Assembly: GCF_018446385.1 (NCBI RefSeq)
Contig: NC_055986.1
Location: 28,765,593-28,829,592, forward strand
DNA from: Zingiber officinale
Lineage: Eukaryota; Streptophyta; Magnoliopsida; Zingiberales; Zingiberaceae
Reading direction: 5' to 3'
Length of the DNA stretch: 64,000 bases
Positions within the stretch are counted from its first letter, which is position 1, and each line of letters begins with the position of its first letter. Position numbers and translations under genes: made by a program. The notes beneath the pieces are model-generated. The model did no database searches, was not told the origin of the DNA, and saw nothing but the letters and a program-made list of their open reading frames with translations. Of the stretch, positions 21,620-47,899 are shown one piece after another.

Positions 21620-22810
21620 GAATGAATATTCTCCTTCCTAGTGGCCAACTATATATTCTTGATTTATCTCATCACATATGATTGTGGGGTGATCATATGG
21701 GGTTGTTGGAAAGATAAATTTCATCTTACTACAATATTATTTACTCTATTGCTTAGAGTTTGTCGAGCTTATTATACTAGAAGATGATCATTTCTTGAGA
21801 GATATATGTCCTTGGAAAAAAATAAAAAAATTCCTCCCACCCCCTAGTTAACTTGGTGGTCAACTATAAGTTGATCCCGTGATTTATCTCTTTCACAAAA
21901 TTTGGGGATGGACTGTGAGAGGCACTTACCCTCTATTTGGGAGAAGGTGAGTAAAGGGGAGGGAAAGGAAAACATGGGTAAACAAAATTTTTACACTTGT
22001 TTGGGAGAGAGTGAGCCATGAAGGGGAAGGGGAGAGAAGGGTAAAGCTTCCCCTTGCATGCTCGGGAATCGGCGAAATTCCTTACACCCCAATTAGAGAG
22101 AAGGGTAAAGCTTCCCCTTGCATGCTCGGGAATCAGCGAAATTCCTTACACCCCAAATTGGGGTGTAAGGAAGGGTAAGAAAAAATTATCCCAATTTTAT
22201 CCTTATTTATATTTTCACATGCAGATTTATTAAAAAAATAAGAGGATATTTTTGTAAATTTGTATATTTAACCTTCATTTCCATCCCTTTGAACTTTCCC
22301 TCCCTTCCAAACAAGGGCAAGATAAATATATTACTTTCCCTCCCTTCCCCTCCCTTCCCCTTCCATCCCCTTCCATTAATGAACCTTACCTCACCCCATC
22401 CAAACAGAGGGTTAGGGTGAGCGTAATTACTTTTTTACTATAGTATTATTCTATTCTCAATGCATGCATGCCCTCAAGAAAAAAACCCTTCACCCCTAAC
22501 CAACTTGACAGTTAGCTATAAGCTGATCCCATGATTTACTTCTTTTCCTATAACCCGGGGGTAGGTTGTGAAAGGCTCTTGGAGCAAGCATAATTACCTT
22601 TTCCTACAATATTAGATATCCAGTTGGTTAGATGATGATAAACTTACTATAATGGCTATAATGGGATAGAGATTAATTTTCGATGGTCATGAAAATCCCT
22701 CCCACCTCTAGCCAACTTGATGGTTAGCTATAAATTGATCCTATCATTTATCACCCTTCACATAAAATAATGACAGACTATGAGAGACATCTCGGTGAGC
22801 ATAAATATCT
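21620..22810. repeat. Four diverged repeat units, one split by a MITE
   Basis: Units near 21620-21720, 21830-21928 (continuing at 22415), 22490-22600 and 22690-22810 share a pattern of 'aacttg-tggttaactataa-ttgatcc-atgattta' and then 'gagaggc' and 'gagcataatta'. The second unit is interrupted by the MITE at 21929-22411; the other units serve as empty sites. Confidence 0.65.
21929..22411. mobile_element. MITE with TTA target duplication (PIF/Harbinger-like)
   Basis: Starts CCCTCTATTTGG, and its end reads CCCTCTGTTTGG on the other strand. Flanked by TTA at 21926-21928 and 22412-22414. The 3-bp TTA duplication is that of Tourist/PIF-Harbinger elements. Inside, a 62-bp block is duplicated in tandem (22033-22094 and 22095-22156) with about one difference. 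No coding frame. Length 483 bp. Confidence 0.75.
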
Positions 22811-24827
22811 TTTATTACAATACTACAATATTATTTAAGTAGACCCATAATTTATTTTTCTTTCTGGGGATATGTTTAGAAAGACGTTTAGAATGGTTAT
22901 AATTACTTTTTATTATAATATTATTTATTTTATGTATTCAAATTTTAAAAATTCAAAAACATTAGCGCTTTCTTTTTTTTCCACGTTAGAAATTTTACTT
23001 TGTCCTATTAAAAATTTATTGATTTTAATTTACGTCTTCAAATTTAGATAGGAGATAGGATTTAGATAGGCGAGCATTGAAATTTATAAACGTATATTAA
23101 GTTTAATTGAATTTTAAGTGATTTAGAGTTATATAGGTTCATAGCTGAAATTAACTGACGGATTAAAAAAAAAACTCTGAATCATTTTAAATCAAAACAA
23201 ATATACTTTTATTATTCTTTTCCAACAGTCACATATGAATTTGAAAGTGTTAATTTAGAGTACTGAATTTTTTTTACTTCGAACAGTTTGAAAAATTTAT
23301 CACAAACTATTTATAAGGATACTCACCGACAGATATCATTAATGAGTTACTAAAACTTTTCTAATTAATTAAAAACATATTAAATTTTTGAATTTTCTAA
23401 AATACGAGACTAGCTTTTATAGTAACATACTATACCTTAATTGTCTTTTATAGTAAAATACCAGACCTTCACTTTAGCCCACAACTGTTTATGTGAGATT
23501 AAATTAGACCAGTTTATATCTAACTTTCTAGCAGCTTATAGGACAACAAAAACAAAACAAAGAATTCAACTTCCAATTCCATTAATTAAATCCCTCCCAG
23601 CATGAGTTTACTTACATCAAATGAGGCTCCAAAGTTCAAAGAAAGCTTGGGCGTTGGAAAAAGTGAAATTTGAATGTGTTAAAAAAGAATGGAAGGAAGG
23701 AAGGTCCACAAAGAAGGGGACAAGAACAATTGGGGGAAGAAAATAAAGGACAACTTCTCTGCTCTGTTGCAGCAAAGTCCCTCCAGCTTTGGGATCCAAT
23801 GTCTTATTAACAATTGCCACTTGACTTATTCTCTGCAGTTTACTAGATCGAGCCCCTTCTTTCTACTGGATTAGCCAGTTCGATCGTTAATCCGGTCGAA
23901 TCGATTTCAGCTCGAGGCACATTGGAAAAGCGAGCAGTGAGATCAATGATTTGGTTTCACTTTCATTGTGGGGACGAAAGCTCGGGCATGCTACCGCCAG
24001 ACGATTCTGAGCTGTTTTTGTGCGGCCTCATAAATGGCTGCCATGTGAAATAGGTGCCACCGCAAAGGCAGAAAACAGAGAGCTTTAAATGAGGAGGACT
24101 TGGCCATGGCCATGGCCGCTACCTGCCAAGGACCTCCATTTCCAGGATCATGCAGCAGACAGACAGACAGATACCACCCTTCCTGATTCATGCAAAAGAA
24201 AGAAACAAGATCTTGCAACAGGACAGTACCGGCAGCCTGCAGATTCCATTAAGGATTCTTGGTCAATGTTCTTGTCGGCATTGATGGGTCATGAAGAGCA
24301 TCATGATGGACCATCTCGAAGCATTTGTTGGATAGATTTATCTTGAGCCGTCCTCGATCATATAATCGAGTGGTACCAACGAGCATGGCGAACACTCATC
24401 TCGACGAGATATAAAAACGGTGGCAGGGATTGGAGTAGTTTTTCATCTTTTAGGAATGTCCAGTAAAAGCTTTGGAGTAGCTTCCACAAAGAGGGACAGG
24501 AGGAGTCATGCGCCTTTAGCCTTCTCTCTCAGCAGTAAGCAATGCATGGCATGCTAATGGAACATGGATGTTTATTAATGATGAATGTTGGTGTAATCAT
24601 CAAACTTATTGTGTTTATGTCTGTGTCTTGTGGCAAGAACAAATCAAGTAACTTCCTTTGGTTTTAGCCATTCCATCTTGGTATAAACAAGGCAAATAGC
24701 CAATGTGTTTATCATTTCAGACATGAATGTGTCATTCAGGACAAACAATCCAACAAAACCACCATGTTAACTTTGGTTGATCTCCTTTCAGAATCTGATT
24801 AAATAAACTGCATCAAACTGAAAAGTT
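22811..24827. other. Intergenic, no gene seen
   Basis: AT-rich to about 23500, then more balanced sequence. Open frames at 23617-24346 overlap each other on both strands and show no domain. Includes the 3' flank of the CHUP1-like gene. Confidence 0.45.
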
Positions 24828-26951
24828 TTAGCCTACTTCCAGTATTGTACCAGCTTTCCATTGTTTCTGTTGTGATCCTCTACTCTGTGATTCAACCTTC
24901 TTCTTCAACTCCTCGATTGTGATCATCACCTCTGACTCGAGCCCTCCGGCAAACTGCAGTGAAATGGAGAACTAAATAATTGGTAAGATTTGATGTCAGT
25001 TGATCCATGGTCATTAGTAGGTTGGATCTATCTACAGTCTACTTGCCTGGTGAGCCCTATAGGCAAATTTCACCCCCTGAAACAGAAGTGCCTCTTGTGT
25101 CGATTGCCTTTCGGAGGGCTGAAACAGTTCGAGCTCCATTGACACTCTACTCAGGTAGAGTCTTGCAAGCTTCACAGAGATTTGTTTCATCTGCAATTGT
25201 AAATGAATAATTTTTTTAGGAAATTGATGATTGAAAGTGAAGAGGAAAGAATCTACAATGTAGGCAACTCTCTATCCTTTCTTCGAAAGAAAAAAGATCA
25301 GGCCTGTACCTTGTTAACCATGCCACAATCTAGCAACCAATCAGTCGGAATTTTGCACTCCTTGTATAACATCATATTTGCATTCCTCAACTCGAGCAAT
25401 CGATTGACGCCGCGCTCCAACCTTGCATCATCATGGACCACAGCATGAGTACTAGTTGTTAGAAAATAGAAAGAAAATGTTGGAAATGAAAGCAGAATGA
25501 GAAATTGATCATGAGTTTCTGCTTAATTACTTGTCTAGTAAGTTTGAAATCTTCTTTAGTGTTGCCTCACATGGTGAGGAGGAATCATCCTTCAAAGAAC
25601 AAACTTGAGCTTCAAGTTGTTTTAGATCACGGTACTGAACGGCGGCTTCACGCAATGCATCTGCTCTCTTCTCGGGCCAATCGAAATGCTTCAACACAGC
25701 TCTCTCATCAACCTGCTCAGTAGGTCATAGAGAAACCACAAGAGTAAATACAAGAAAGATGTTATGCATGGTCCAAATTCTATGATTCAGGAACATCAAC
25801 AAATTTGTATCCTGGAGGAAATTAATTGAGTACAGAATCATACCAAGGTGGAGAGTTCTCCGTCAAGCCAATCAACAAAGGTTAGGACATCTTCCATGCT
25901 AGTGAAAGATGACAATTGCACCTTCTCTATAAGCTGCTTGATGAGCTGCCCTTTTGTTTCCACGTCTGCTTTAATCTGCCCATGAACATCAACATTACAT
26001 GAAGAATAAAACTTTGGTGATTTTTGACAGAAGCAACAGGATCTACCGCTACTAGATGAGCTGATCTATGTTGAAGTTCTCCAACAATGCCACTATGTAC
26101 GATACTAGAGATAGTGTTGGGAGAACCCCCATTGCTTGTTGAACCTTGCTTTCCCTCTTGCTTTGTCAGTGAATGGTATAGTTGGACTAGAACAGAGGAA
26201 GCCTTGTTCACTGTTGCTCTTCCTGAAGCATTGTGAGGTGGAGGAGGAGGTGGTGGTGGTGGTGGTGGTGGTGGTGGACCATGGGAAGCACGTTTGGAAG
26301 GCGTCAAAGTTGGAACAGGCATCTTAATCATTGCATTTGGTTGAAATTCTACTGCTTGGGTAGCAGGTCCCATTGCCAAAGGCTGGTTCTTGCAGATACT
26401 GTTTCCTAATTTAACCTCCATTTCTGTAGGATTGTTCTGCTTTTCCTGAACAAGTTCCAGCAAACCTCTAAACTTAGATTTGACATCTAATCAAGTCATT
26501 TAGTTTAATCATTCTTTAAATCAAAAGTTCATTCTAATTTGTTCATTAAGTTCCATACCTGATCAATCTTCTCCATGCTCTTGATCTTTGCTTCAGCTGC
26601 ATCGAGATCTTGCTCCAGCTTCCTGTTCTGTGACTCCAACTCAACATTCCTCACCTGCAACTTCACAATCTCAGTCTTCAATCCTGTCACTTCCTTCTGC
26701 AACTCCCTCACCAATCTCTCACTCTCACCATCGACTCTTGGGGCACCCAAACCGTGAGTGCCCGGCCTACGCTTGTTGAACTGAGGAGATCTCTCAGCCA
26801 ATTTTGTGCTGCTTGAATCAAAAGAAGTAGATTTCGGTCTCGCCTTCAACCCTGTAGAGGTCCCATTAGCTGTATCTGTTCTCGGAGAGTCCTTCACTCT
26901 CGAGACTACCCTGGTTCTGGCTGCACGTGGAACTGCGAGCTCTTGCTTCAT
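24828..26951 (-). CDS. CHUP1-like protein (coiled coil, polyproline, CHUP1 domain)
   Basis: Seven exons read downward: 26951-26559, 26445-26047, 25975-25844, 25712-25531, 25421-25310, 25190-25047, 24953-24828; 1488 nt, 495 residues, all phases agree. A basic, serine-rich N-terminus is followed by a coiled coil (about 74-131), a run of 14 prolines (188-201), and the C-terminal CHUP1 domain: VLVQLYHSL, WLDGELSTLVDERAVLKHFDWPEKRADALREAA, KIPTDWLLDCG, STQEALLFQGVKFAYRAHQFAGGLE. CHUP1 anchors chloroplasts to the plasma membrane and drives actin formation; relatives such as IPGA1 act on microtubules. This protein is half the length of CHUP1 and lacks its long N-terminal part, so it belongs with the short family members and its exact role is open. 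The last intron has a GC donor (CAG|GCAAGT). Confidence 0.92.
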
Positions 26952-27002
26952 AGCTTTGCTTGGACAAAGCAGTACTGCTGCCTCAAAGCTGTAGCTGTGG
27001 AG

Positions 27003-27010
27003 TATATATA
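27003..27010 (-). promoter_or_regulatory. TATA-box candidate of the CHUP1-like gene
   Basis: TATATATA on the minus strand, 52-59 bp upstream of the ATG at 26951; this would give a 5' UTR of only 20-30 nt. Confidence 0.4.
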
Positions 27011-27041
27011 TTCGAGATTATATCTTTATCATCGTGGTAGC

Positions 27042-27077
27042 TGAGGAAGGAGGAAGGAGGAAGGAGGAAGGAGGAAG
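27042..27077. repeat. Seven-bp microsatellite (GAGGAAG)n
   Basis: About five uninterrupted copies of GAGGAAG, just upstream of the TATA-like box of the CHUP1-like gene. Confidence 0.9.
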
Positions 27078-27604
27078 AGATCACCAGTTGACTAAATTAT
27101 GAAGCTAACGCGTTCAGGTTCAGTGGCAGCCATAAATATTACTTATTCATGCATGCCAGTAATTGTCCGTGTGGCTCCATGCTAAGTGAGAAAAAAAACT
27201 TAGGACCAGAGGATCTTAATGGTGTGATTTACTAATTGCATGCCTTTTCATTTCTGATCTCTTGCCTAAGATATATAGAGGGAAATGAGACAAATTATCA
27301 GATCAGTTCGCATTGCTGTATGCCTGTCTTAAAAGCCAAGTGCATCCATCTCTGATGCTTTTTTATGTGGGTGTCAAAGGTGGTTAGGTTAATTAACTAG
27401 TGCAACTTAGAAAACATTCGAATCACATAAAATTCTTCTTTCATTTTTCTAGATTTTCTTGCATTAACGCATGTGACAAACAAGACATTTTGAAATCACA
27501 CATCCAATAAATTGGCGAAGAATGAATGCATATAAACCAAACAAGTTCGGTGCTCACTTAATCCAGCAACCATACCTAATACCTTAATTCCAAGTAAATT
27601 AAGC
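27078..27604. other. Upstream intergenic, no gene seen
   Basis: Distal promoter side of the CHUP1-like gene; no coding signal or repeat recognised. Confidence 0.45.
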
Positions 27605-27990
27605 AATCACCCGAGCCATGATTTACCTCTTCCGTGTTAGTCCTGGGACGGATTGATGAGGACCCTGGGGGCGAGTGTATTCGTCTTTTTACCACCATGA
27701 ATATACTCGTGCATTAAGCCCCCTCGCACTTTGGCTCGCCTCATGGCCGGCTATTGTCGTGATGGGCTCTATTTTCGGAAGATATGTAGATTTTATCATC
27801 ATGAAGTCTGAGGTTCAAATCTTGACAAAATCGAGGTAAATGTTTCCCTCATGTGCTAGTCATTATTCCAAAGACTAGTAACCGTCCGTGATTTACCTCC
27901 TCCGTGTTGGCCCTGAGACGGGTTGGCGGGGGTGCTGGGGGCGAGCGTATTCGTCTTTACCACCATGAGTATATTCGTTCATTCCCCATG
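27605..27990 (+). mobile_element. SINE-like repeat, one full and one partial copy
   Basis: The block 'tgatttacctc-tccgtgtt' to 'gtattcgtcttt...accaccatgaatatactcgt' (27610-27715) recurs at 27890-27980. The second copy is preceded by a segment with a tRNA B-box-like GGTTCAAATC near 27812 and an upstream 'tggccggctattg' that could be an A box. Together this suggests a tRNA-derived SINE next to a 3' fragment of a sister copy. No clear target duplication was found. Confidence 0.45.
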
Positions 27991-28728
27991 ACAGACAAGT
28001 AGCTGAGAGCTTGTATTTGATTATTTGAAATTTTTATATTTTAAATTTATTTAGTTGATTATTAAATTTGATAATATAAATTTATTTGTTCATTTTAAAA
28101 TTTTATTTATTTATTTATTTAGCACATTGGTAAAAATTTTATCGATGAATAAATTTATTTTTTTAATTTAACGAGATGAGATTTTGCTTGTGAAGGATGA
28201 TTTTTCCGATTGCAACTTCTTAATATCCTCATGATTCTTCTCCCCTTTCTTTGTCACCAATCGACTGCATCCAACCCAACTCCACCTTCAAATTGGACAT
28301 GACTACGAATGTGACCCATCTTCGACTCCAAGAAATGGCTTGGGTGATGTTGATCTTTTGACCGGACGTTCATGTGACTGACGTCGTTTGAGTGACGCAA
28401 ATTAAGCTTGAGCTATATGGTGGGTCACAAAGCCATTTAAATTATGAATATATCCGAAGTTTTTAGGCTTTTGAGAAGAAAGGTTATGCATGGGTTCCAG
28501 CTAGTTAATGCATAGGCCTTGGATTTTGTTGACTTGAATTAGAAGATGAACAAAGAAGTAGCTTCTACTCTTGGATATGATTTGTTTTTTGATTGTTGGT
28601 TTGAATGTGGTTGTCCAGTGCACTTCAAATGATACTGAGCAGTGCGTTCAGAGGTCACATTATTTGAAGTGACATCGCTGGATCATAATATATAGATAAA
28701 GAAGTGTTCTAATTAATTATTGATACTA
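27991..28728. other. Intergenic, no gene seen
   Basis: AT-rich; left flank of copia element 2. Confidence 0.45.
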
Positions 28729-29087
28729 TTATTTATTAGATTATATATATTTATTTATAGTTTTAGGGTAATATTGTCATTTTCTCTTTTATATTTAGAG
28801 TTTTTTAATTAAACTATATCATCCTGTCCAAAAGTGAACGAGTGAAAAGCTGGGGAGGTGACGGTTTCGCTGACCGGATGTTGATTCCGCTTCGCTCTGT
28901 AAAACAAACAACGTTAGTGCTGAATCGAGGAAGGGGTCTTTAGCGTTAACCTTCCGATGCTCAAGTCAGTCACCGGAATGTGGAGAAGAAGTGAAGCAAT
29001 AATAGAATTATGTGCCCAAAAAATAGACCATGTGTACCTTCGTCGGTGATGGACCCCCCTTTATATAGAGCCCCAGTGGGCGACGTA

Positions 29088-29533
29088 TAAGAGTGTCAAT
29101 TCGGGTGGGTCGGGTCAGTTGATTTTTTTTAAACCCAATCCGAACCCGAATTCAACCCGAAACCTCTAAACCCGAACCCGACCAACTCGAACCAGACCCG
29201 GATAACCCGAAAACCCAATTCAAAACGATTTTTTTTTTTACTATTTTTCCTATAATTCTTCACTTTTATCCCAATACTCCATCATTATCATACTAATATT
29301 GATACTAATATACATAAAAATATCTTAATTTTTAAAATAAAATTTGATTTAATCCCAAAAAATCGAATAAACCCTATATTTGGATCAACCCGGGTCAACT
29401 CGAACCCGACCCGACCCAACCAAAAATTTTCAACCCTCCAATCGGAACCCGAAAATGTCCAACCTGAACATGATTTTTTTTCAGGTTGACTCGGGTTGGA
29501 TCGTCGAGTCAGGTTTATTTTTGACACCCCCTA
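29088..29533. mobile_element. hAT-type MITE rich in CCCGAACCCGACC motifs
   Basis: The ends TAAGAGTGTCAA and (other strand) TAGGGGGTGTCAA form short inverted repeats. Flanks GGCGACGTA / GGTGACGTA are an 8- to 9-bp duplication with one change. Solo LTR 'A' has the uninterrupted site. Internal sequence is a degenerate run of 'aacccgaacccgacc' units on one side and 'gggttgg' on the other. Confidence 0.8.
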
Positions 29534-29926
29534 GGTGACGTACACGCTCCTCGTGGGCACGTTCTCCGATATATTTGTGGTCACGTCCTCCAACATGTTC
29601 ATGGCCACGTTCTCCAACATGTACGGGGCCACATCCTCCACTATGTCCTATGAAAGGATGTCGTGAGGACCACTGTCAGGCCTGGTCCTAGACTTTGAAG
29701 GATCCAGTGCAAAAAAAAAAAAAAAATGGGCCCTTTAAATTCAGATAAAAATAATAAAATCGATACTATATAATAATTCATCAACAGAACACATAAACTA
29801 AAATCCATAATAATGAAAACATTATATTCAATGTTGCTAATACTTAGTATTAGAAAATGAAAAAGAATTATTACAATTAACTATGAAAAATTGATCTTCT
29901 TGCAGTTTTATTTGCAAAGTCATCGA

Positions 29927-32447
29927 TCAATTTTTCATAATTGAGTTTTTTAAAAACTCACTCTCAATCGAAATCATAGCTAATGCATTCAATCTTGTTT
30001 GGGTCATGGTTGATCTCAAACAAGATTTCAACAACTTCAATTTAGAAAAACTTCTTTCTACAGATGCGACAGTCACCGGAATAGTTAATAATATTTTGTA
30101 TGCAATGAATGAATTCGGGAAACTATTCATTCTTTGCAAAAAAAATTAGTATTTCACTTGCTGTTTTTGTTTCCTTTGGCAGAATATGTTGTATGATTTT
30201 CAGTTCTTGATATAAGTTATCTCCATCCAAATCTGAAACATCTTATCTTGTACCATTTTTTCTTTGTAATTTCCTTTCAAGATTCTTACAACGAGCTTTC
30301 AAGTCCTCATCAATCAATGAACTCAACTTTTCAACTGTGAAAAGAAATCCAAAAAGATCTTCATATTTCTCATATTGCTCAAACCTTTTCTTCAATGACC
30401 CAATTGTTTGATCTACTATGAACAAGAAATAATGAACTCTAAAAGCTTTCTCGGCAGATTCTTGAGGTAGTTTTGAAGACTCATATGTAACCTCATCAAA
30501 ATGCCTTTTTCTATATATATGTCTTTTTTCAAGAAAAACATGATCAATCTCCATTGTTGAAGTAGGTTCTTTTGTTGTATTGATAGCTTGTCCAAATCCA
30601 AATTCTCTATACTCTTCAAAAGAAGCAATTAACCCCTTAATCTTGGTCATAGCAATGTCAATAAGCATGTTTTCAGATTGTAAGCTTTTGCTAACAATAT
30701 TAACTTTACCCAATATCTCATACCAAATAATCATACCCACTAAAAACTCAAAATTTCCAAGTTCAAATGTTGCTAAAGACTTAGCTTCACTTCTTATTTT
30801 AGAGTGAGTGTCTTTTTCTTCTGCAACTTGAAGTAAAGCTTCTCTGATTTGTTGAGCTTAAAGTACCACTGCTTTTACACTTTCAGTATTACTTTCCCAT
30901 CGAGTGATTGACAATGGCTTGAGAGTTAAGCCTTTTACCGTTACATGATCTATCAAAATCTTCCACCTCTTTGTAGAATGAGAAAATATTATATAAATCC
31001 ATTGTACTACTCCAAAAAAGTCTTTCGCTTTTCCACAGGAATTTGCAATATCACAAAGTATTAAATTCAAACAATGAAAACCACATGGAGTATACAATGC
31101 TCTAGGATTTATATCCAACAAATTTTTTTGTACGCCTTGGTGCCTCCCTTTCATATTTGCCCCATTATCATATCCCTACCCTCTCACATTATCAATATTA
31201 AGATCAAAACTCTTCAACACATTTTGCAGTTCTTCAAACAAGTCTTGTCATGCTGTATCATCCACTTTTAAAAATCTCAAAAAGTATTCTTCTACTTTCA
31301 TTGGGCTTGTAGAAACATCGACACATCTTATAATTAAAGTCATTTGCTCTTGGTTACTAACATCAAGAGTGCAATCAAGTATTACAGAAAAGAACTTAGT
31401 ATTTTTAATGATTTCAAGAATAGAACTCTTTATTTGAGAAGCTAACAAGCATATCAATTCATTCTGAATTTTGTGGCTAAGATAATGATGATGTGTATTT
31501 CTTTCAATATGTTCCCTCATCACTGAGTCCCACTAAGCAATCATCTCAACAGCAGCCATAAAATTTCCATTGTTATTATCATAAAGTTTCTCATTACTAC
31601 CACGAAATGCTATATTTTGTTTAGCAAAAAATTTCACAAGTGAAATTAATCGGTGTAATACCTTCCTCCAATGCTCTTTTGCCTTCTTGATTTGATCTTG
31701 AATAGCATGATCAATTGTTGTACCCTTCATTAACCTGATATGCAACTCAGACCAACTAACATAATAATTGATATGCTCAATACTTGTCTCATGTTCTTTA
31801 AGTCTGCTACTAAGATGCCCTCAATCACAGTATCCCTCATTTGCTAGTTGACTTGGTTGAGGCCCCCTTTTGAACAACTTGCAACAAAAACAAAATGCTT
31901 TATCAAGTGCTTGTGATTAGACCAACCAATCTTTATGGTGCTTTTGACCATTTGGCAAAATCCGAGTATAGAAATCTAAAGAGAATCGTCTATTTGATTT
32001 ATCTTTGGGGCATTTCCCTGTTAATACATCTCTTATAGGGTCCTTTTCCACTAATTGATCTCTTCCACTTGGGATCTAAATTCTCCCAATTTTTAGGATA
32101 AAAAATGTCAAGTGGAATTGATGAACTTGGTTCTTCATTCACTTCATTAATAACATCATCATCACTTTCAGAATAATTATTTTTAAAATCTAAGTCATCA
32201 CCACTTTTATTGTCTTCAATCTCATTCACATCTCCCTCTATATCATTTTCAATGGCTAAGCCTTCATGTAATTCATTGTCATTGTTTTCTTATTTTTCTT
32301 CATTAACCAGATCTTCAAGTGATGAATTTTTCGATTCTTTGACAATAAATCTGTCAATTGCCTGCCCCTCTTTGAGACTCAATAAATTCTTCAACTCTTT
32401 TTTTCCCGCTTATCATGTCCTGATAGATACTTTCTAGTATCAGACAT
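29927..32447 (-). pseudogene. hAT transposase (TTF zinc finger/DUF4371 type)
   Basis: The start ATG at 32447 reads MSDTRKYLSGHDKREKK, a typical N-terminus. In order: TTF-type finger region (DIFYPKNWENLDPKWKRSI, 32130-32060), DUF4371 region ([18 protein letters not shown] and [19 protein letters not shown], about 31520-31300), RNase H-like core (MKGRHQGVQKNLLDINPRA and CGFHCLNLILCDIANSCGKA, 31154 on), and the C-terminal hAT dimerisation domain (LLTIPVTVASVERSFSKLKL, about 30115-29960). The reading frame is cut into at least six pieces by stops and frameshifts, so it cannot make active transposase. Normal function: cut-and-paste transposition of its own element. Confidence 0.85.
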
Positions 32448-32984
32448 TCTAATTTTCTACAAAGAAAAAAATCAAACTCTCAAACAGCCATTTATTATAG
32501 ATATTAGACAAGCATTTATTATAAAATGTTCATTTTACAACTCAATTTCCTATTAAAATGAATCCTTGCTCCATGAAGCTATTGAGAAACACAAGCAGAG
32601 AGAAAAATATGATAACATATTAACATTTATCATGGAAGAAAACAACATGCTAATTGCTAAGTAAAACATATGAGAAGGAAAAATATGATTCATATGAAGA
32701 TACAATAGTCCAAATAGAGGGGAACTGGAAGAATTGAAAACCAAAAAATTTACCTTGATTCTCTTGTGGAAATTCTTAAAGTTTAGCCGTTTAGGGAAGG
32801 TGTTGCTGGCGTCCTAGGTATCTCCAAATCTTGGAAGAATGCAAGGAAATAGGGAGACAGAGAAAGAGGAACAAGAGATGTTTCTAAAAAAGTGTAAAAC
32901 TGCATCATCAATAAGAAGAAAGGAATTGCATAAGTGCGCTGTAACAGAAGAAAATCAAATATTTGCATGATTATGCATGCTAAT

Positions 32985-33477
32985 TAGAGCTATCAGATGG
33001 ACCAATCCGTGGCGGGACGGGTCGGCCCGTGGCGGGCTAACCATTTGGCGGGGAAGGGCGGGCCAACCCGCCAACTTGGCGGGTTGGGAAATTTCCAACC
33101 CAACCCATTCTAAGGCGGGTTGTGGGTTTGGCGGGCCAACCCGCGGGCCCATCAAAAATTTAAAAAAAAAATAAAAAATATTTCATATCTTCAACATTTT
33201 ACTTCGAAAAAGTTTTCTACAATTAAATGTATACATAAACATGTATTTTAAATATAAATGAACACAAACGAGTACTTATGTTGGATGAAAAGTACTATTT
33301 TTATTTCAAAATTATAACAAAGAGAGATAATAAATTTACCTAAAACTTAGCGCGGGTCGCTGGCATAGGCGGGTCGGCCCACGGCGGACTTGGGTTGATA
33401 AAATTTCAACCCAACCCGCTTAAATTGTTTGGCGAGGCGAGCCAACCCGACGGGCCCAACCCAAATTGACGGCTCTA
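32985..33477. mobile_element. hAT-type MITE inside the hAT element
   Basis: Starts TAGAGCTATCA, and reads TAGAGCCGTCA on the other strand at its end. Perfect 8-bp duplication ATGCTAAT (32977-32984; 33478-33485). The two end regions are rich in 'ggcgggccaacccgc' motifs around an AT-rich middle. Non-coding, 493 bp. Similar in build but not in termini to the MITE at 29088. Confidence 0.9.
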
Positions 33478-34338
33478 ATGCTAATTGCATGTCATACTAC
33501 AATCGAACATGTAAATAATTAGCTTTATTTAACAGGTAATACTACCATGTCTCTGTCGAGCCTTCGGTAAACAGTAAAAGTAGAAAAGGCGGCACCTTTA
33601 GGTTTAGCGAAGATGGAGGAAGAAATATCTGCATGGTTATTTTTTTTTTGGCACTTTTACAAAAAAATCCCATAATAGTTTCTAATTTATAAGTAGGTAC
33701 TTTTAATTAAATTTTTTACATGGGTTAACTTTGATATAAAATATATAAAAAAAAGTGGGTCCTCCAAGAAATGGGGCCCTGTGCGTCAGCCCCATGTTGA
33801 CCGCATCAGGGCCGGTTTTGACCACCGTCCTGTTGCTTGGCTAAGCGGGTCAGCCGCTTGGCCAGGACTACACTCTACCCACGGTCAGGTCCCACTGTTT
33901 TAGCCGAGCGGATAGCCGATCGGCCGAGAGTCCTCCGTTCTGTCAAATTCAGTTGTCATTCCGTGTGGTGTCTGTGTAATAACCTGCCTTCCTTCGTTTG
34001 AACAACATGATCCGGTCTCCCTCAGCATCTCGATAATATGACTTGAGCGCTTGGTTATGGTATTCTCCCGAGCTAGAAGGATTATTCGCTCAAGCATGTC
34101 CCCCGTCGGTCGAACCCTACCTGTCTCAACGGACCGTTGTATTTATCCTCCGTTCAGCTCTTTGACACTTAGGCATTGACCATCTTGACTTTGACCTCTA
34201 TCCTGGTGGTTGACCTCGTGCCAGGCGAGCCTCCTCTTATCGCTGCATCGCTATATAAAGGCCTTATGTTCTGTATTTTCAATTATCAATTTTAGATTCA
34301 ATAATATGACTAGTTTTTTCTTTTTCTTAATTTCTACA

Positions 34339-34350
34339 TGGTATCAGAGC
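34339..34350 (+). other. Primer binding site of copia 2
   Basis: TGGTATCAGAGC directly after the 5' LTR; complementary to the 3' end of initiator methionine tRNA, the usual primer of plant copia elements. Confidence 0.9.
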
Positions 34351-36860
34351 AATGTTCTCTTTCTCTGACCTAATTTTTTCTGCCGCCCCCTGTTATTGCT
34401 TCCTTTTACAGCTGTCATCTCCTACTGCTATTGCCGATTTTGACGTCGACGACTTGTCCTACCAATTTTGACGCCAACACTCTTTTCTGACGATTTCGAC
34501 GTCGACGTCCTATGTTGTTGATTTCAGAGCCGATGCTTTTTTCTATCGATTTTGGTGCCGACTGCCTGTGTTATTGATTTTGGTATTGACGTCCTTTTAT
34601 ACTAATTTCGACACCAACACTCTGTGCTGCCAATTTCTACATTTGACATCCTTTTCTGCCTTGAATTCTCTGTGTGATCACGGGTCGTCCTGACACCATT
34701 TTTTTACGGATCATACAGATGTGTATCCTTACAGTTTGGTTATTCTGAGCATTATTCGTTCTGTCATCATGCCTGGTCGTACAGATGCTTCATGGAAATC
34801 TAATTCATATATATTGGAGTAATTCCAACAGTTCCTTGCTTTATAGCCCTCTGTCATGTCAGCTTCCTCTCATATATGTTTGTCATCGTTTGGTATTTCA
34901 GGTATATCTTCATTCTTATGGGATTTGGACTCTGGTGCCTCCCATCATATGTTATTTAATTATCATCTTTTGTTTCTTTTTCTCCCCGTTCATCTATATC
35001 TATTGTGACTGCTGATGGTACTGCTATGTTATTAGTAGGTGTCGGTTCAATTGTTATATCTTGTTTATCTCTTATTGATGTTTATTATATTCCGAGTCTT
35101 ACTTTAAATCTTATTTCTGTTAGTCAATTATGTGAGTCTAGATATCTAGTCTTTTTTTCCTTCATCCAATTGTTATGTTCAGGACCCGCAATCTCAGAGG
35201 CTAATTAGGACAAGTCGTAGGCAAGGAAGACTCTATGTTTTAGATCAACTCAAAGTACCAGAAATTGTAACTTCAAATGTGAATTTATAATCTTTTCATC
35301 TAAATCACTCATCTTTTGATTTTTATTTGTGACACTCTTGTTTAGGTCATATTTCAGCATCTCGTTTGTAGTTTTTAACTTTTACAGGAGTATTAGGACC
35401 TTTAAAAAGTTCTGATATTTTTTATTATACTGGTTATAAATTGGCTAAATTTTCTATCTTACTATTTTCTAAAAATCTTTCTTTTTCTTCTGTTTCATTT
35501 GATTTTATCCATTTTGATGTGTGGGGAGCATTTCCTATTCCTATAAAAGGGAGGGGGGGTCAAGGTATTATGTTTCGTTTATTGATGATTGCACTCGTTA
35601 TACTTGGGTCTATCTTATGAAACGCATGTCTAATTATCTTACCATTTTCAACAACTTTAGAGCTCTTGTGAAAACTCAATATTTTAGTGTTATAAAGTGT
35701 TTTCGTTGTGATTTAGGGGGTGAATGCACTTCGAATCATTTTTCACAATTACTTGTTGCTGATGGTACTATTCATCAAACCTTTTGTACAGATACTCCTG
35801 AACAGAATGGTGTGGTTGAACGAAAACATAGACATCTTGTTGAAACAACCCATTCATTTTTATTATCTGCCAGTGTTCCTAGTACCTTTGGGGGGGGGGG
35901 GACAATCCTTACCGCTTCTTACGTGATTAATAGAATTCCAACCTCACACAATTTAGGCTTGTCACTTTTTGAAAAATTATATGGGCATGCTCCTCTCCAT
36001 TCTTCTTTGCGTGTTTTTGGTTGTACTTGCTTTGTCCTTCATCCACATGTCGAGCGTAATAAATTAGTCTTTCGGTATGTTTTTGTGTCTTTTTGGGTTA
36101 TGATGTTACTCAAAAAGGATATCGTTGTTTTGATCCCATTAGTCAAAAATTGTATGTCTCTTGTCATGTTGTATTTCTTGAGCATATTCCATTCTTTTCT
36201 ATTCCAACTAATTTATATAATATGACAAAGTCATATCTACTTTGTATTGATCCTTTCAATACTGACACTAAGGAAGTTTACCCTCAGCTCCTACTGGTAG
36301 CTCAACTGAATCTGGTACTTTGGTTCCTAAGATATCCGCTCCACATGCTCCTCCTTCTGCCACTATCCAATCATCTCCTGAGGTTGCGGATGATCCTTCT
36401 CTCTACCGTCGTCAATCCACTCGCATTCGTAAGTCTACTAAACTGTCAGATTTTACTTACTCTTGTTATTCTCATTCTTTTGCTTCATTTGTTGTATTTA
36501 TTCATTGTCTTTCTGAGTCTGTATTCTATATATAAGCTGTTTGTAACCCACTTTGACAGAGTGCTATGACTGAGGAACTAACTGCTTTGCATTAGACTCA
36601 TACATGAGATTTGGTTTCGTTGCCACTAGGAAAACACACTATTGGTTCTCGTTGAGTATATAAGATAAAAACTAAATCTGATGGATCTATCAAGCGATAC
36701 AAAGCTCGTCTTATTTCTAAAAGTTATTCTCAGGAGTATGACATGGATTAAGAGAAAACATTTGCTCCTATTGTAAAAATGATGACTGCTTTACTCTAAT
36801 TACTGTTGCTTCTGTTCGTCAATGGAGAATATCTCAGATGGATGTCAAGAATGCATTTCT

Positions 36861-38191
36861 TGATAGATCGGATGCAAGCAATAGAGGGGGGTGAATATCG
36901 CTTCTTTTAAAACTTTTCTTTTACTTTTAAATCAGAATCGTGCAGCGAAAATAAGAAAAGAGACAAAATCGTTTACTTCGTTCGGAGCCTAGCTCGACTC
37001 CTACTCGAAGGCCCACGACCCTTGACCACACCGATGGGCAAAGCACTAAAACTCTTCTTTCTGAAATCTTCGGAAAGAAGCAGATCGTACAAGTACAATG
37101 AAATAAGATAGTAGCACTCCTACTATCTTATTTTAATTTAAGTGCAATATGAAAATAAATATACTGACAATATGTGAAAGTTGAAGCTCGGTCAGCACTT
37201 GCTTGCGTGTAGAAGATTTGTAGAGCAGTAACACGAACAGCAACAGCTAGCACAGAGATTAACTTCAAACCCAAATAGTGTTCTTCAGCCCTGGACCTCG
37301 AGCTCTCTTTTATAAGAACCGTCGACGTTCGGTCGACCGATCCCTGGGTTCGGTCGATCAAACCCGCTCCATTCCTTCTGTGCTGAGATTCGCTGAGATA
37401 TGATCTTCGAGCATTAACTGATCTTTAATGGTTCAGTCGACCGATAACCTTGTTCAGTCGACCGAACGATGGACTTTCCTTCTCGCCGAGATTCGCACTT
37501 AATGCTCCATTAATGCTTTTACTGTTTAGTCGACTGAACCTCATTTTCGGTTGACCGATCATGCCGTGATACCATATTTGCGAGCCTGATCTGTTTTGTC
37601 ATTTTTGCCTGTTCGGTCGATCGAACCTTTGTTCGATCGACTGATAAAATATCTTTTTCGATCGACTGATCCTCCTGTTCAATCGACCGAACCCTTGGTC
37701 AAATGAAGCTTTCTGAGTGCTGGTCGCGTGGCCGCTGACAAAGCCTGATTATGAGTTCTGAGTCAAAAGTTATGACCATTTGAAGTTCAAGGGGTCATAT
37801 GATTCTGCAACACAAAGTTAGTTCGATATAACAATAATATTTCTGCAAAACAAAGTTAGCACAGTTATAATACATGAGTAGTAATATGCATGAGTATAAC
37901 AGTTAGGATTGTCTTGATCTCAACTTGGAAACCTTCCCAGTTTCTTCAGTTGGATCAGCGACCTTACGTTGTTGCCTTCAGGAACCCGACCTCACTGTCG
38001 CTCCTCTAATTATTTACCTCAACCTACCTGCCAAACGTTGGGTCCTCCAGACCTGTTTGGATGACTAGGACTTTCTCGATTGAGTAAATAGCCTGCACAC
38101 TTAGCCAAATCATCAAATCATAACAAGATTTAACTTGAACCTTTGACAACATCAAAACTCAGGTTTGATTCTGGTGCACCTTGCACTAATA
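36861..38191 (-). mobile_element. Solo LTR 'C' (1.33 kb) in the copia 2 RT region
   Basis: Begins TGATAGATCGG and ends GCACTAATA; read on the other strand this is a TGTTAG-like start with one change. Perfect 5-bp duplication TTTCT (36856-36860; 38192-38196). Taking it out restores the conserved copia stretch NAFLNGDLHEEVY at the site. No coding domain is seen. Between about 37318 and 37700 it carries about ten copies of a degenerate palindrome, TCGGTCGACCGA. Family unidentified. Confidence 0.88.
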
Positions 38192-39394
38192 TTTCTAAAT
38201 GGTGACCTTCATGAAGAAGTTTATATGACACCTCCTCCTGGTATTTCACACTAACTTGGTGAAGTTTGCAGGCTTCGTATAGAGCTTTATGGTCTTAAAC
38301 AAGCACCTCGTGCTTGTTTAAGAAGTTCTCTACAGTGATTACTTTGCTTGATTTTCATCCTAGTAATCATGATTCAGCATTGTTTGTTAGATGTACGAGT
38401 GCAGGTCATATTCTTTTATCATTATATGTTGATGACATGATTATTACTGGTGATGATTTTGATGAAATTACTTCCTTGAAGTCTGAGTTGGCTCATTGTT
38501 TTGCTATGAAAGACTTGGGTATGCTACGCTACTTTCTGGGTATTGAGGTTGCTTATTCCCCGAAAGGTTATCTTTTATCCCGGCCAAAGTATATATTTGA
38601 TCTGTTTGAGTGTACTCGTCTTACTGATAATAGAGTCGTTGATACTCCTATTGAGACTAATGCTCGATATTCTCCATCTGATAGCTCACCTTTGTCGGAT
38701 CTTAGTTTGTACAAAACTATTGTTGGAAGCTTGGTTTATCTCACTATGACTCGTCCAGATATTGCATATGTTATTCATGTGGTTAGTCAATTTGTCCCTG
38801 CATCAACTACAGTTAATTGGGCTACTGTTCTTCGTATTCTCAGGTATTTTCGGGGCACTCAATTTCAAAGCCTTTTATTTTCTTCTACTTCATCTCTTGA
38901 ACTATGTGTATACTCTAATGTGGATTGAGCTGGTGATCCTATGAATTGTAAATCTACCACTGACTTCTACATTTTTCTTGGTGATTCCCTCATTTCTTGG
39001 AAGAGTAAGAAGCAAGATATTATTTCTAGATCTTTCATAGAAGCTAAGTATCATTGCATAATGTTAACTACTTGTGAGATAGTTTGGTTGCATTAGTTGC
39101 TTACAAATATGAGTATTTCTCTTCATCAACCTACTCCGTTATATTGTGATAATCAGAGTATTATTCAAATTACACGCAATTCAGTTTTCATGAGCGAACT
39201 AAACATATTGAAATTGATTGTCATGTTACTCATCACCATTTTCAGATTGACACCATCACATTACCTTTTGTTCCTTCAAAGTTACAGATTATTGATATGT
39301 TTATCAAGTCACATTCTGTTTCACGCTTTCGTTTCTTATCTGATAAACTCTCAATGCTTCTAGCTGTAGCATCGTGAGTTTGAGGGGGGGGGGA

Positions 39395-39574
39395 TATTAG
39401 ATTATATATATTTATTTGTTTATTGCTTTTAGGACAATTTGATCTTTTCCCTCTTTATATTTAGAGTTTAGGGTTTCTTAACTAAACTATATAAAGACCT
39501 TATACTCTGTATTTCTAATTATTAATTTTGGATTAAATAATATGACTAATTTTTTCTTTTTATTAATTTCTACA
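39395..39574 (+). repeat. 3' LTR of copia 2
   Basis: 180 bp beginning TATTAGATTATATA after the tract TTTGAGGGGGGGGGGA and ending TTTCTACA; pairs with the split 5' LTR. Confidence 0.9.
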
Positions 39575-39601
39575 TTATTATTATTATTATTATTATTATT
39601 T
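39575..39601. repeat. (TTA)n microsatellite at the copia 2 target site
   Basis: Nine TTA-type units directly after the 3' LTR. Confidence 0.9.
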
Positions 39602-40194
39602 AATTGACACCAACTTACACCCCACATAAATTTTCATAAATTGGAAAATTTTCACAGCGAACGACCCATAAGTCCAGTGTTCTTAAGTCAACTATCCATT
39701 AAGAGAAATTTATCTGTTAATTCATCGAAGTTAAGATTTGATCCTTAAATATCTAAGAAACTAAGAAAGCACTTGCCGCTCCACCATTGCTCGGAGGCAT
39801 GAAGTGTTCTAATTATTTGAGTTGGCATGAAGTGTTCTAATTTGTCCCGTACAATGGTTAGATCTCCAAGTGCGGATTTCAAGAATTTTAAGATCAAGAC
39901 TCAACTGTGGTGAATTGTAGGAGATTTTTCCTCCAATGGATAGTGGACTTGAGAAAGTAGACTGTCTGGATATACCACTATGAGTGTCTCTTAATTTACC
40001 TTGATGTCTAGTAGAAAATTTTCATAGAGCTAAATTAGTAATTTTCAAAATTAATTGGTTTGAATTCAGTTCTTAATTAAAAATAATTCGGACTGATGTC
40101 TCTATTGAGGCCTTAGTTTTAATACCAAGTTGCACTTAAGCAAAGTGTGCTTATGGTTTTGTAAAAATTAGGCAAAAGATGATTACGCTCGCCT
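39602..40194. other. Unclassified repeat-like sequence
   Basis: No coding signal. 'gcatgaagtgttctaatt' appears twice (about 39797 and 39827), and a related 'gaagtgttctaatta' occurs at 28701 on the left side of copia 2. It probably continues at 41063 beyond solo LTR 'D'. Confidence 0.45.
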
Positions 40195-40199
40195 ATAAC

Positions 40200-41062
40200 T
40201 GTTGGAGTAATCTAGGTGCCTTAGGTTTTGATGTTTGGATAAAAGTTTAAGTTTGGTTTATTGTTGTATATAATATGCATTGTGAGTGTGCAGGATGCAT
40301 GTACAACAATGTAAATCTAAGTATAACTTGGTAATGGATGAAGTCCCGGAGGCGCAATCTCTTGGCAAAGGAAGACCCGACAACAATGACAAGACCGATG
40401 GAAGCTTCAGAAGACAAAGCGTGAAGGATGAGGAGACATCCGAGAGACGTGAGGCCGATGGAGGAGGCTAGAATGCTAAGTCTAGGTTGTGCGGACAAGG
40501 ACGAGTGCATGAGAGACTGTACTCAGGGTAAAATTCTAGTGTATACTGTAGCGTTACTGTAATAGTTGACTGGTGTTTTCATCAGTCGACTGGTAGTTGA
40601 CCGTTGGCTTGTAACAGTCGAATTTTACTTAGCACCAGTCGACTGATGGCAGGAACACAGTTAGATGTTTCCTCTCGAGCTCTATTAAATAGAGATCGGA
40701 GGTGCTTGGTCATGATTGACGAAAATAGAGGTAGTTAACTCCTATTAGAGTTTCCAAAGTGCTCTTGTGTACCTAGCGTGCTTGTGTGAGTTTGTGGCGA
40801 GCTTTCTCCATCCACAAGGAGCTACGTGAGCTAGTCGGAGGTTTTTCGGGGAGTCATCCATAGACGGTTCATGATTGTCCACCTTACGAACAACCTGGAA
40901 TAGGAGTTTTATCTCCGAACCATGTTAAATCAGCATGTTAGGTTCACTTTCTCTTATTAATATTTATTTTTATATTTTACTGTGCATACTAACTATTGTA
41001 GGAAATAAACGTTAAGTGAATCACTATTCACTTCCCTACTAACAAGCATCAAAGTCTCAACA
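40200..41062 (+). mobile_element. Probable solo LTR 'D' (about 0.86 kb)
   Basis: Starts TGTTGGAG and ends TCTCAACA; flanks ATAAC / ATAAT form an imperfect 5-bp duplication. Contains several GTCGACTG palindromic motifs (40560-40645) like those of solo LTR 'C', and a 61-codon open frame with no domain. The right boundary is less certain than the left. Confidence 0.55.
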
Positions 41063-41820
41063 ATAATGTCTCTGTTAGTTCGTCCCAACGAAAAAGGTAT
41101 TAAGAGATAAAACATATCTTCCAAAAAGCTCATTGATGAGCAAAGATTCAATCGAAATTTAAAGATTAGTCCAGTCGATACTTTAAGTTCAGTCCTTTTT
41201 TTTTAATATTGATTATTTCATTATGTTGATTCAGTTTCTATTATAAATTTTATCAATTAAGCTGATTGAGTTTTTTTATTAAATAAAACAATTAAGAAAT
41301 ATTAATATTTAATTTTTCGATCAGGTTGAAAAAAAAAATATGTTAGTTCGATTTAATTTTAATGGAACGATCACCCCTATAATACCAGCTGGGCCTAGAT
41401 ATGGTTATGGTAAAGACACATATCTCAAAATCTCATATAATAATATAATAATATCTGATGTCTTAATTATGACATCAGAGAGGACCTTAATAATTCGATC
41501 CCTAATCATTAATTATATTGCTTGATTGAGCCCTATCTTGTTCCATCTATACATCCAATTTATTACCCTTGGGATAATAGTGTCCCTAAAATGGTTTCTC
41601 AGATTTTCAATCCTCTAAAAATTGAGTCCTAAAGAATAAATTTTCTTTAATAAATAATTAATCTAAAAATATTGGATTATTGAGCTGTCTATTATGAATA
41701 TTTCATAATTTATGTTAATAATCGATAGAAAACTTTTATAGTATTACATCGATTAGACTATATAAGTTGAATATACAAAGTTAACTAATTTTTTTTAAAA
41801 AATAAATAAATAAAAAATAC
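41063..41820. other. Intergenic, no gene seen
   Basis: AT-rich sequence between the LTR and a SINE; no domain in its single short frame. Confidence 0.45.
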
Positions 41821-42032: not shown

Positions 42033-44289
42033 CACGCTTGGTGTCCACCCAATTCATTTATTCATCATATTCAGTCTGTTAAGTTACACTATCAAATGAG
42101 TGATTTATTGAAATAATTTTTTTAATCTCAAATTATCCATTCAAATATTAGAATAAAAGTAATGTAGAGACTGAACCATCTCCACTATATCTACTTCTAA
42201 ATATAGAAAAGGTTTTTTGATACGAGTGAGCGAAATAAAATTAAAAGTAAGAATACAAATCAAATCAAATCACTCTCATTGCATTGATCGAATTGAATGA
42301 CATGACAAGTGGAATATCACTTTGATTCATGCCTCGACCAAATATGAAGATTAGTTTGTTTCCATACAATTTTACAATTTACGTGAATTTCAAAACAGAA
42401 TTTGAACAAAAAAAAAACATTTCTCAAAAAATATAGGAGAGGTTTATTTTTCTTAAATAACAAAACAAAAAAAAAATATAAAGTGTTTTTTTTTGCCCCA
42501 CGGACGCAATGGTTATGAGGTAGAGAAGCTAAAGGGAGTGCCTGAGTTTGTTCCTCTGTTGAGACAAAACTTGAGATGAAAGGTCATGGACAGACATATC
42601 AATGAGTGAAGAAAAACAACCCATGAATTAATTCACGAGCAAAGTACCGATGCACTGTTGAACCACTTACACGGATGGCGAAGACCACGAGGGCCATAAT
42701 CGACGATTTACTATAGCGCTTCTGTGATTAATGTGACACTTATTGAAAACTGAGGCAAATATAATCCAACGACAACGCAATCAAGAAAGCGTAGACCAGA
42801 AATAGTACAACAAAAAACTTGCAGTACAGTTGATCTCGTTGTACTGATTTGGAATGGAACGCTCATCAAAAATCAATTTGTACTTCCAAATTCCAATTGC
42901 AGTACCAGAGCTTACCAAATCCGCAAGACAATGCAGTACCATAAGTTCTCATAAATACATCCAATTCCTAATCTCTTTCGGAGAGGCCAACAACAATATC
43001 GCAGTCGAGTACGACTGAGGAAGAAGAAGAGGAGGTAAGTTCATGCGAGTGGAGAGAGGGGAGGAGGGCAAGACGGGGACGAGGCAGAGCATGGGACGGG
43101 GTCATCAACAAATGCTAGGTTGCTGCTCTTTCCATGCACTGCCTCTTCCCTGGCTCTCCCCTATCTAGCTGGTCTCTTCCTCTCTTCAGTCAACTAAGTA
43201 CAACAGTGTTTGTAATCAGAGTTTCTTTCGTGTCTATTTCACTATTATTTAACTCCTTTGCGTGATAACTACTACTGAACACAGATTGATTGCTAAGCCT
43301 GATAGTATTTGAAGTTTATTGTTACAGATAAAAGAGAGGAAGAAGGAAAAGAAGCTCACCGGGGACACTGGCGGCACATGAGACGGCCTAGATTTTCAAC
43401 AATGATAAAGACTGCATGAAGATGTGTTTTAGATTGCTCCAAATAGGAAAAGATAGAATCTAGATATGTTCAATGATATATTGAATGCATTGTGCAAAAA
43501 TATGTCCCAACTATCTCATACACTGATGATGGTTACTTGATTAGTGTATATTAACATTTTCAAACAACGAATAGTGCAATCATCCTATTATATACCAGAC
43601 ATTATGTCTGTTTTTAACGAGATCTTCAAGGTGCCGTATTTATAGACATGCAAAATTCTGTTAAGCAGGATAAAACTATACAGATGCTCTTATGTTGAAA
43701 AGACTCACCCGTCATTTGATCACGCATCCAAAACTTCTAAACAACAGCCTCATCCTGCAGAGCTTACAAGAGAATTATGATTATGAAGACCATTAAACGA
43801 GTAGGGAAAATCTGCTTAGAATAGAAAATTTGAACCCAAGTCAATCCGGCCATCTTTTACTGAATCTGCAAGAAAAAAAAGAAAAAAGAAAAGAGAAGAT
43901 GATAAATTTGACTCTGAAATCATACAACCCTTCACATAATTTCCTCAATGTACAAGCGGTTCTTCAGCCACATTACTGAAGGAACATTTTGCAAACAGTC
44001 ACCAGACTGGATTTAGAAACAAATTAGTTCCAAATGTGATAGACGGGTTTCCTTGAAATGAGATAGACACATTAAAGCACAAACCATTTTGCGTGACCTT
44101 GCTCCTAGTATTTCCTTTTTCTGTAAGACAGCTGCTAAGTGCTAACTAAGTATATGCATAAGTCATGTGATACAATTCACATACAAAAAAAAATATGCTT
44201 CTTACGTAAAATCAGAAAGGAACTGAACCATGATAATTGAATTTGATTTAATGTGAATAATGGTCAAACATACCATATTTCAAAATTAA
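42033..44289. other. Intergenic, no confident gene
   Basis: A GA-rich block near 43015-43090 contains a good donor (GAGGAG|GTAAGT at 43036), and an acceptor-like TTACAG lies at 43327, so a non-coding or fragmentary transcript is possible. I see no protein domain on either strand. Confidence 0.4.
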
Positions 44290-45845
44290 TAACAACAATA
44301 ACAACCAAGCTTTATCCTGCTAGGTGGGGTTGGCTATATGGATTCTTTTACGCCATTGAGCTCTATCTCGTACTATATCATCATCTATACTTAAATATAT
44401 TTTATCTTGTTTTATCGTTGCTAACCTATTCTTTTTTGGTTTTCGTCATTTGATATGCATATTTGTTATAGTTTCACATCGCCTGAATATTTATTAACAG
44501 TCTAAGCGCATGTTCATACCATCTTAAACGTGTGTCTCGGAGTTTTCCCTGAATAAATGCAACTTCGACTCTCTTTCTAATGCTTTCATTTCTTATTTTA
44601 TCCATCCTTGTATATCCACACATCCACTTTGCCATCTTCATCTCTACAGCTCTCATCTTCTGCTTATGTGCTCGAGGTATAGCCCAATATTCCATGTCAT
44701 ATAACATAGCAGGTCTAAGTTTTAGAGTACTTTACTATCACATAAAACACTTGACGTTGCCCTCTATTTCAACCATCCTACTTGTATTCTATGTAAGATA
44801 TCTCTCAATCCCTCCATTATTTTACAAAAATGATCATAAATACTAAAAGCTCTCCGTTTATCGTCATCTCCTATCTTAACAATTGTCTCATTATGTCTAA
44901 TATTGCTAAACTTAAATTTCATATATTCCGTCTTTACTCTACTAAGCCTAAAACCTTTCACTTCTACTATTTTCCGCCAAGATTCTAGTTTAGCAATTAC
45001 TCTTTCACATGTCTCATCTACCAAAATAATATCATCTACAAATAACATACACCACAATACTGTGTCTTGAATGTGTCCAGAATACGTCCATGATTAATAT
45101 AAAAAGATAGAGAGAGATGATCATTGATATAACCCTATCTTTATTGGAAATACTTTAGTTAATTCATCTGAAATCTTCACTCTGATTCTTAATTAGTTCA
45201 ATATATATTATGCTAACTCCTCTCTTTTCTAAAATTTTCTATATAATTTCTCTTAAAACTTTATCATAAACTTTTTTTTAAGTTACCATGGGTAGATTTT
45301 GCTTTTGCTCCGGATATTTTTCAAGATGTATACCTTCTATTGTCAACCTTCAAACATGAACCCAAACTGTATTTTTTCTAAATCTTTTTTCTATTACTCT
45401 TTCCCAAAATTTTATGGTATGACTATTAGTTTAATACCCCTATAGTTTGTATAATTTTGTACGTCTCTCTTGTTCTTGTATAAGAAAATTAGAATACTTA
45501 CCCTCCATTGACCAAACATTTTTTCATTTTTAATATCATGTTAAATAATTTTGTAAGTCATTTAATATCTTATTTTCTTAGATACTTCTATACCTCTATA
45601 GGAATATCCAACGATTTTTTTTATTTTAGCTTGTTCTATTTCTAAAGTTTGAATTTTGCGATAAAGAAATTAAAATTTTATATTCATTTAACCTATTTAA
45701 TTACCTAAGTTAAGTTAAACATCTAAACTTTTATTAAAAAGTTGATGAAAATAATTATTTCACCGCTCTTTTATTTCTCCATCATTTATCCTATTGCATT
45801 CATCTTATTTAGATAAGATCTCTTATCTGATTTCAAAATTAATAC
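44290..45845 (-). mobile_element. RTE-type LINE, 3' part
   Basis: The minus strand ends in a TTG-repeat tail (seen as 'aacaacaataacaacc' at 44291). It encodes the RTE C-terminal signature (KMRAVEMKMAKWMCGYTRMD, 44700-44580) and RT residues MLFVDDIILVDET (45050-45010). Reading is broken by stops and frameshifts. The 5' part is missing; the fragment runs into the tandem duplication that begins at 45733. Confidence 0.85.
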
Positions 45846-47164: not shown

Positions 47165-47899
47165 TATTATTTTATATATTATAGATACCAAAACTATTCT
47201 AAACCAAGTAACATTATTTAAAAAAAAAAATCTGAATCTTACAATTTAAGATTCAATATGATTTACAGTTCATGATATAAAACTTGGACTCGACATCCTT
47301 GGCTTGATGTATTCAATTCTATTGTAAGCATTGGGTCCATGAAACTAAGCTCAAATTTTCAAATTCAGCTCACATGAACAGAAGATTTATACCGGCGCCT
47401 ACTTTAAAATTCGCATAAACAATCACATACACCTATACCAAATGTCATCCAAACCGTTCATCTTCCAGAATGAACCGCTGGAGCTACTAGTATTATGTAT
47501 CTAGACCAAATGTCACCAACATATCATCTAAGCACGAACCATTAACACTTGAGCCATGCATCTCAGCAAAAAAAAAAAACTGTTAAGATATTACTAGAAT
47601 TTAAATACGGTAACAAGGACCAACCAATTAAATAATATTCAAACATTGTGAAGATGAAGTACAAAAAAACAATTGCTGGCACAAGACAATCATGGGATTC
47701 TTGTAAGCACTGCTATAGCGAGCAGTCACCACAGAATTTCCGTAGAGACTCCTATGTTGCTTAAGTCCCAAAAAAAAAATAGATTAATTAAATAGACCCT
47801 TAAAAAAAATGAAAGATGTAGACGAAACAAATATCACATGTTACTCATATAGGCCTATGATTGTACTGTCTAGTGTGAACTACTGCATTTTATATAATT
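47165..47899. other. Intergenic, no gene seen
   Basis: AT-rich, no domain and no clear repeat. Confidence 0.45.

Follow-up and report, generated by a model that had tools for sequence, protein, structure and literature searches.

The 64,000-nucleotide stretch of ginger DNA analysed here (the window, C1:28765593-28829592) contains a degraded Ty1-copia element, copia 2, in which five further insertions are nested: two solo LTRs (B and C), an hAT element and two MITEs (MITE1 and MITE2). This stack and its order of insertion had been proposed in an earlier note made from the letters of the window; the stack is confirmed, with all six target duplications present, and the order is right, resting as it does on the nesting together with empty sites in the other haplotype (C2, 194,392,478 bases, within the same assembly of 3,090,333,446 bases and 211 contigs) and in paralogues. 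Two of the proposed boundaries, those of the hAT element and of MITE1, shift by one base. The empty sites with a single target copy that had been predicted were found for B (in the partner LTR of copia 2), for C and the hAT element (in C2) and for MITE2 (in relatives of the hAT element), and for MITE1 the relatives of B leave no room, so that every one of the five inner insertions is covered, which is more than chance. The stack is almost certainly an ordinary one, built up by independent transposition events one after another.

Copia 2 (28734..39574, plus strand), which is also present on C2, contains all of the nested insertions, and is called as an element from its LTR pair and from its predicted integrase and reverse transcriptase sequences. 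Separate open frames match the Pfam domains Pol_BBD (E 2.1e-7), rve (integrase; E 1.9e-5, which is under the Pfam cut-off) and RVT_2 (E 6.3e-23), and these lie between two LTRs in the Ty1-copia order, with integrase upstream of reverse transcriptase. Because B splits the 5' LTR, the LTR pair was aligned as two pieces: the first (28734..28818) ends in the CTATA of B and aligns with 39395-39491, and the second (34251..34338) begins with the second CTATA of B and is 88.6% identical to 39487-39574, both within the 3' LTR (39395..39574). After the second piece stands TGGTATCAGAGC, which we take to be the primer site. The sequence TTATT occurs on both sides of copia 2 (28729-28733 and 39575-39579); as it lies within a TTA microsatellite, this duplication is weak taken alone. 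A search with sequence from both ends of the element (queries 28000-28600 and 39400-40400) brought up no empty site of copia 2 among the genome matches listed: for either query these include one other long match, on C2, where copia 2 is likewise present.

Solo LTR B (28819..34250, minus strand, a span that includes MITE1 and the hAT element) sits inside the 5' LTR of copia 2, between CTATA at 28814-28818 and at 34251-34255, and has LTR ends, a 5-bp duplication and no internal region. Its ends in the window read TC..CG, which are worn LTR ends: the C2 allele has the canonical TG..CA (TGATCC..GCATCA, with CTATA on either side), and these ends recur at many of 18 other loci of the family. The empty site of B is the 3' LTR of copia 2 itself, which is uninterrupted and carries a single CTATA on both haplotypes. 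B probably derives from an LTR element of Ty3 type, and its assignment to the minus strand follows the side on which a primer-site-like sequence adjoins some of its relatives. An element found only on C2, E (see below), contains an integrase match (E-value 2.2e-17) and has an LTR start that resembles that of B, from which we infer that E and B may belong to one superfamily.

The earlier note had paired B with another LTR, termed A. The use of this pair for dating is rejected: A and B do not form the LTR pair of one element because their identity is 61-66% over the three main alignments (shorter aligned pieces score higher), and B has a duplication of its own. The sequence termed A (9553-10482) is a distant relative of B in a stretch common to C2.

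MITE1 (29088..29533, hAT-type) is located inside B, between GGCGACGTA (29079-29087) and GGTGACGTA (29534-29542), and is present in the C2 allele. Its duplication matches over 9 bp with one mismatch, and its exact boundary is therefore uncertain by one base. The B family was compared at 19 loci, one of which is the C2 allele with MITE1, the others being the best 18 of at least 38 other places listed; in all 18 of these the gap between the pieces of B on either side of the MITE1 site is no longer than 22 bases, too short to hold MITE1, and the same 18 leave no room for the hAT element at its own site. Seven other copies of MITE1 (L059-L065) all start with TAAG or TAGG, and their 8-bp flanks, read off by eye and then scored, agree with each other at 6, 7 or all 8 bases; two of the copies (L059 and L061) have identical flanks and appear to be a single insertion present on both of two haplotypes.

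The hAT element (29677..33820, minus strand), also inside B, has broken transposase frames and is flanked by an 8-bp duplication, ACCACTGT (29669-29676) and ACCACCGT (33821-33828). Its frames match Dimer_Tnp_hAT (E 4.1e-14) and DUF4371 (E 1.1e-5, below its Pfam cut-off); matches at E 0.027 in two frames are weak and were disregarded. A duplication had been reported here as CCACTGTC/CCACCGTC; it does exist, but the true one lies one base to the left, because three other copies of the element read ...CCGGTTCTG and then diverge from one another. On C2 the site reads GAGG-ACCACCGT-CCTG, a single target copy, and the joined flanks match at 89 of 100 bases.

Within the hAT element lies MITE2 (32985..33477), flanked by ATGCTAAT at 32977-32984 and 33478-33485. 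Three other hAT copies are matched on both sides of this site, and all three are without MITE2 and have one target copy each, which is ATGCTAAT in the first case and ATGTTAAT in the other two. With their short length (446 bp for MITE1, 493 bp for MITE2), inverted ends, 8-bp duplications (for MITE1, in its seven other copies) and high copy number (at least 40 and at least 41 genome matches listed, respectively), both sequences would be classed as hAT-type MITEs. A further match, at C3:145509732, extends 59 bases beyond the right end of MITE2.

Solo LTR C (36861..38191, minus strand) interrupts the reverse transcriptase region of copia 2 between two copies of TTTCT (36856-36860 and 38192-38196), again with LTR ends and no internal region. 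Most of its 19 relatives start with TGATAG and end with CAACA, the right end of C itself being TAATA, and some have beside one end a sequence that we take to be primer-site-like or purine-rich; from these family ends and flanks C is read as a minus-strand LTR of copia type. Its empty site on C2, GCATTTCTAAATGG, has one TTTCT, and the joined flanks match at 95 of 100 bases.

The allelic region was covered by seven adjacent stretches of C2. By plus-strand matches of at least 80% identity and at least 120 bases, C2 is colinear with window positions 8584-47838, with interruptions, and the sequences bordering the stack are matched there as well (28000-28600 in a long match at 90%, and 39400-40192 likewise). 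The locus measures about 11 kb in the window versus about 43 kb on C2, which has copia 2, B and MITE1, is without the hAT element and C, and carries two LTR elements of its own that are absent from C1, D (about 12.3 kb) and E (about 25 kb). D, for which an LTR pair was found, lies inside copia 2 with the duplication ATTCT; its empty site in the window (34742..34746) has a single ATTCT, and its joined flanks match C1 at 97 of 104 bases. E is bounded by ATATT on either side and corresponds to ATACT in the window (28723..28727), just left of the copia 2 duplication, with joined flanks that match at 91 of 99 bases. The LTRs of E are 93-95% identical to each other; two direct repeats inside it (C2 33398809-33400471 and 33403723-33405311, L011 and L012) share 81% identity, too little for the LTR pair of a later insertion into E.

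From the nesting by itself, B and C cannot be ordered relative to each other, nor can the hAT element and MITE1; the other haplotype orders both pairs. Because C2 has copia 2, B and MITE1 in common with C1 and is without the hAT element and C, the first three precede the split between the haplotypes, and the hAT element, MITE2 and C follow it on C1, as D and E do on C2. For the haplotype-specific insertions, nesting shows only that the hAT element came before MITE2. The 'timetable of transposon families' that the earlier note drew from the stack is overstated, one locus ordering single insertions and not families. It is very improbable that the hAT element and C instead predate the split and later disappeared from C2 through excision and deletion, respectively; hAT elements can excise, but C2 has one clean target copy and no footprint at each site, and the loss of C would need the exact removal of an LTR to one copy of its duplication, for which no mechanism is known. 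Still less credible is a stack that arose in part from mis-joined repeats during assembly, since repetitive as its parts are (10,039 first-look candidates for C, 2,278 for MITE1 and 2,448 for MITE2), the window and the five C2 stretches counted contain no N, the junctions carry target duplications, and copia 2, B and MITE1 occur at matching junctions on both haplotypes.

By this almost certain reading, the stack arose through ordinary transposition and recombination between LTRs. Copia 2 inserted first and then decayed; an LTR element, probably of Ty3 type, entered its 5' LTR and would have recombined to leave B, which MITE1 then entered before the two chromosome lineages separated. In the C1 lineage the hAT element entered B and MITE2 the hAT element, and a copia-type element entered the reverse transcriptase region and would have recombined to leave C; in the C2 lineage D and E inserted.

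The distances lean the same way as the presence and absence of the insertions and support the order weakly. The two LTRs of copia 2, whose alignment had been suggested as a check, do align, with K2P distances of 0.121 ± 0.029 on C1 and 0.108 ± 0.026 on C2, which fall inside the range that three segments of the copia 2 body show between haplotypes (0.156, 0.097 and 0.094). Between haplotypes the 5' and 3' LTRs of copia 2 differ by 0.067 and 0.080, B by 0.165 and 0.172, MITE1 by 0.099, the flank 22412-27715 by 0.022 and three other flanks by 0.044, 0.063 and 0.082; the LTR pair of E differs by 0.048, more than the flank 22412-27715, and that of D by 0.023, equal to that flank. K2P is not a common clock for these sequences, because B has 102 transitions to 16 transversions and the flank 22412-27715 has 67 to 48, a contrast such as methylated DNA would give. 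In transversions, the copia 2 LTR pairs (C1 and C2 pooled, 12/352) exceed the copia 2 body between haplotypes (60/3682, p 0.03), with no difference from the body for the C1 pair alone (5/172, p 0.21) and none between the pooled pairs and the same LTRs between haplotypes (12/352 versus 9/358, p 0.51). The pairs of E (8/1503) and D (14/2662) fall below the body (p 0.001 and 4e-5) and below the four pooled flanks (118/10171; p 0.03 and 0.003), and show no significant difference from the nearest long flank, 22412-27715 (48/5267; p 0.20 and 0.08). At the substitution rate adopted in the available text of PMC8342452 (1.3e-8 per site per year), K2P would give about 4.7 My for the copia 2 pair of C1, 1.8 My for E and 0.9 My for D; the rate of 6.5e-9 that appears in the text available of PMC8342499 doubles these ages, and absolute dates are not claimed.

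Further differences were observed elsewhere in the window. A C1-only segment of about 480 bp (21928-22412), absent from C2, is bordered by TTA at either end, has the inverted termini CCCTCTATTTGGG / CCAAACAGAGGG, and looks like a MITE of PIF/Harbinger type. At 867-3516 stands an LTR related to that of D (TGTTGGTTGC..TCTAACA, of the same family), flanked on each side by CAGGG and apparently a solo LTR of about 2.6 kb. Another C1-only segment, of about 870 bp (40193-41064), has no obvious target duplication and is in part repeated elsewhere in the genome. Within 42746-47838, C2 33431614-33432338 matches both sides of window position 46447, perhaps because about 0.7 kb is duplicated in tandem on C1.

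Cultivated ginger is described, in the available text of PMC8342452, as having 11 chromosome pairs, 3.1 Gb and 46,902 structural variations between haplotypes, and in that of PMC8342499 as having a heterozygosity of 3.78% between haplotypes. The ginger may possibly, though we hold this with some doubt, be a hybrid whose two alleles here stem from separate parental lineages, each of which stacked its own insertions after the separation; if the pattern were true of the whole genome, such stacks might serve to date the split and to tell which parent each chromosome came from. Among the matches listed in a literature search, none deals with this locus; no such locus was found in the available text of PMC8342452, and its main text does not contain the word 'nested'. 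Large plant genomes commonly hold stacks of this kind, and the present one is solid but ordinary, with clean agreement between the nesting, the target duplications and the empty sites of the other haplotype. As in the 1491 nested LTR retrotransposon pairs from 12 plant genomes reported in the accessible part of PMC6911290, later elements lie within older ones and the order is read from the nesting. The present stack differs from those pairs, as they are described in that part, in that it also holds an hAT element and MITEs, in that B occupies an LTR and C interrupts coding sequence, termed there not commonly targeted, and in that the alternate haplotype provides the empty sites.
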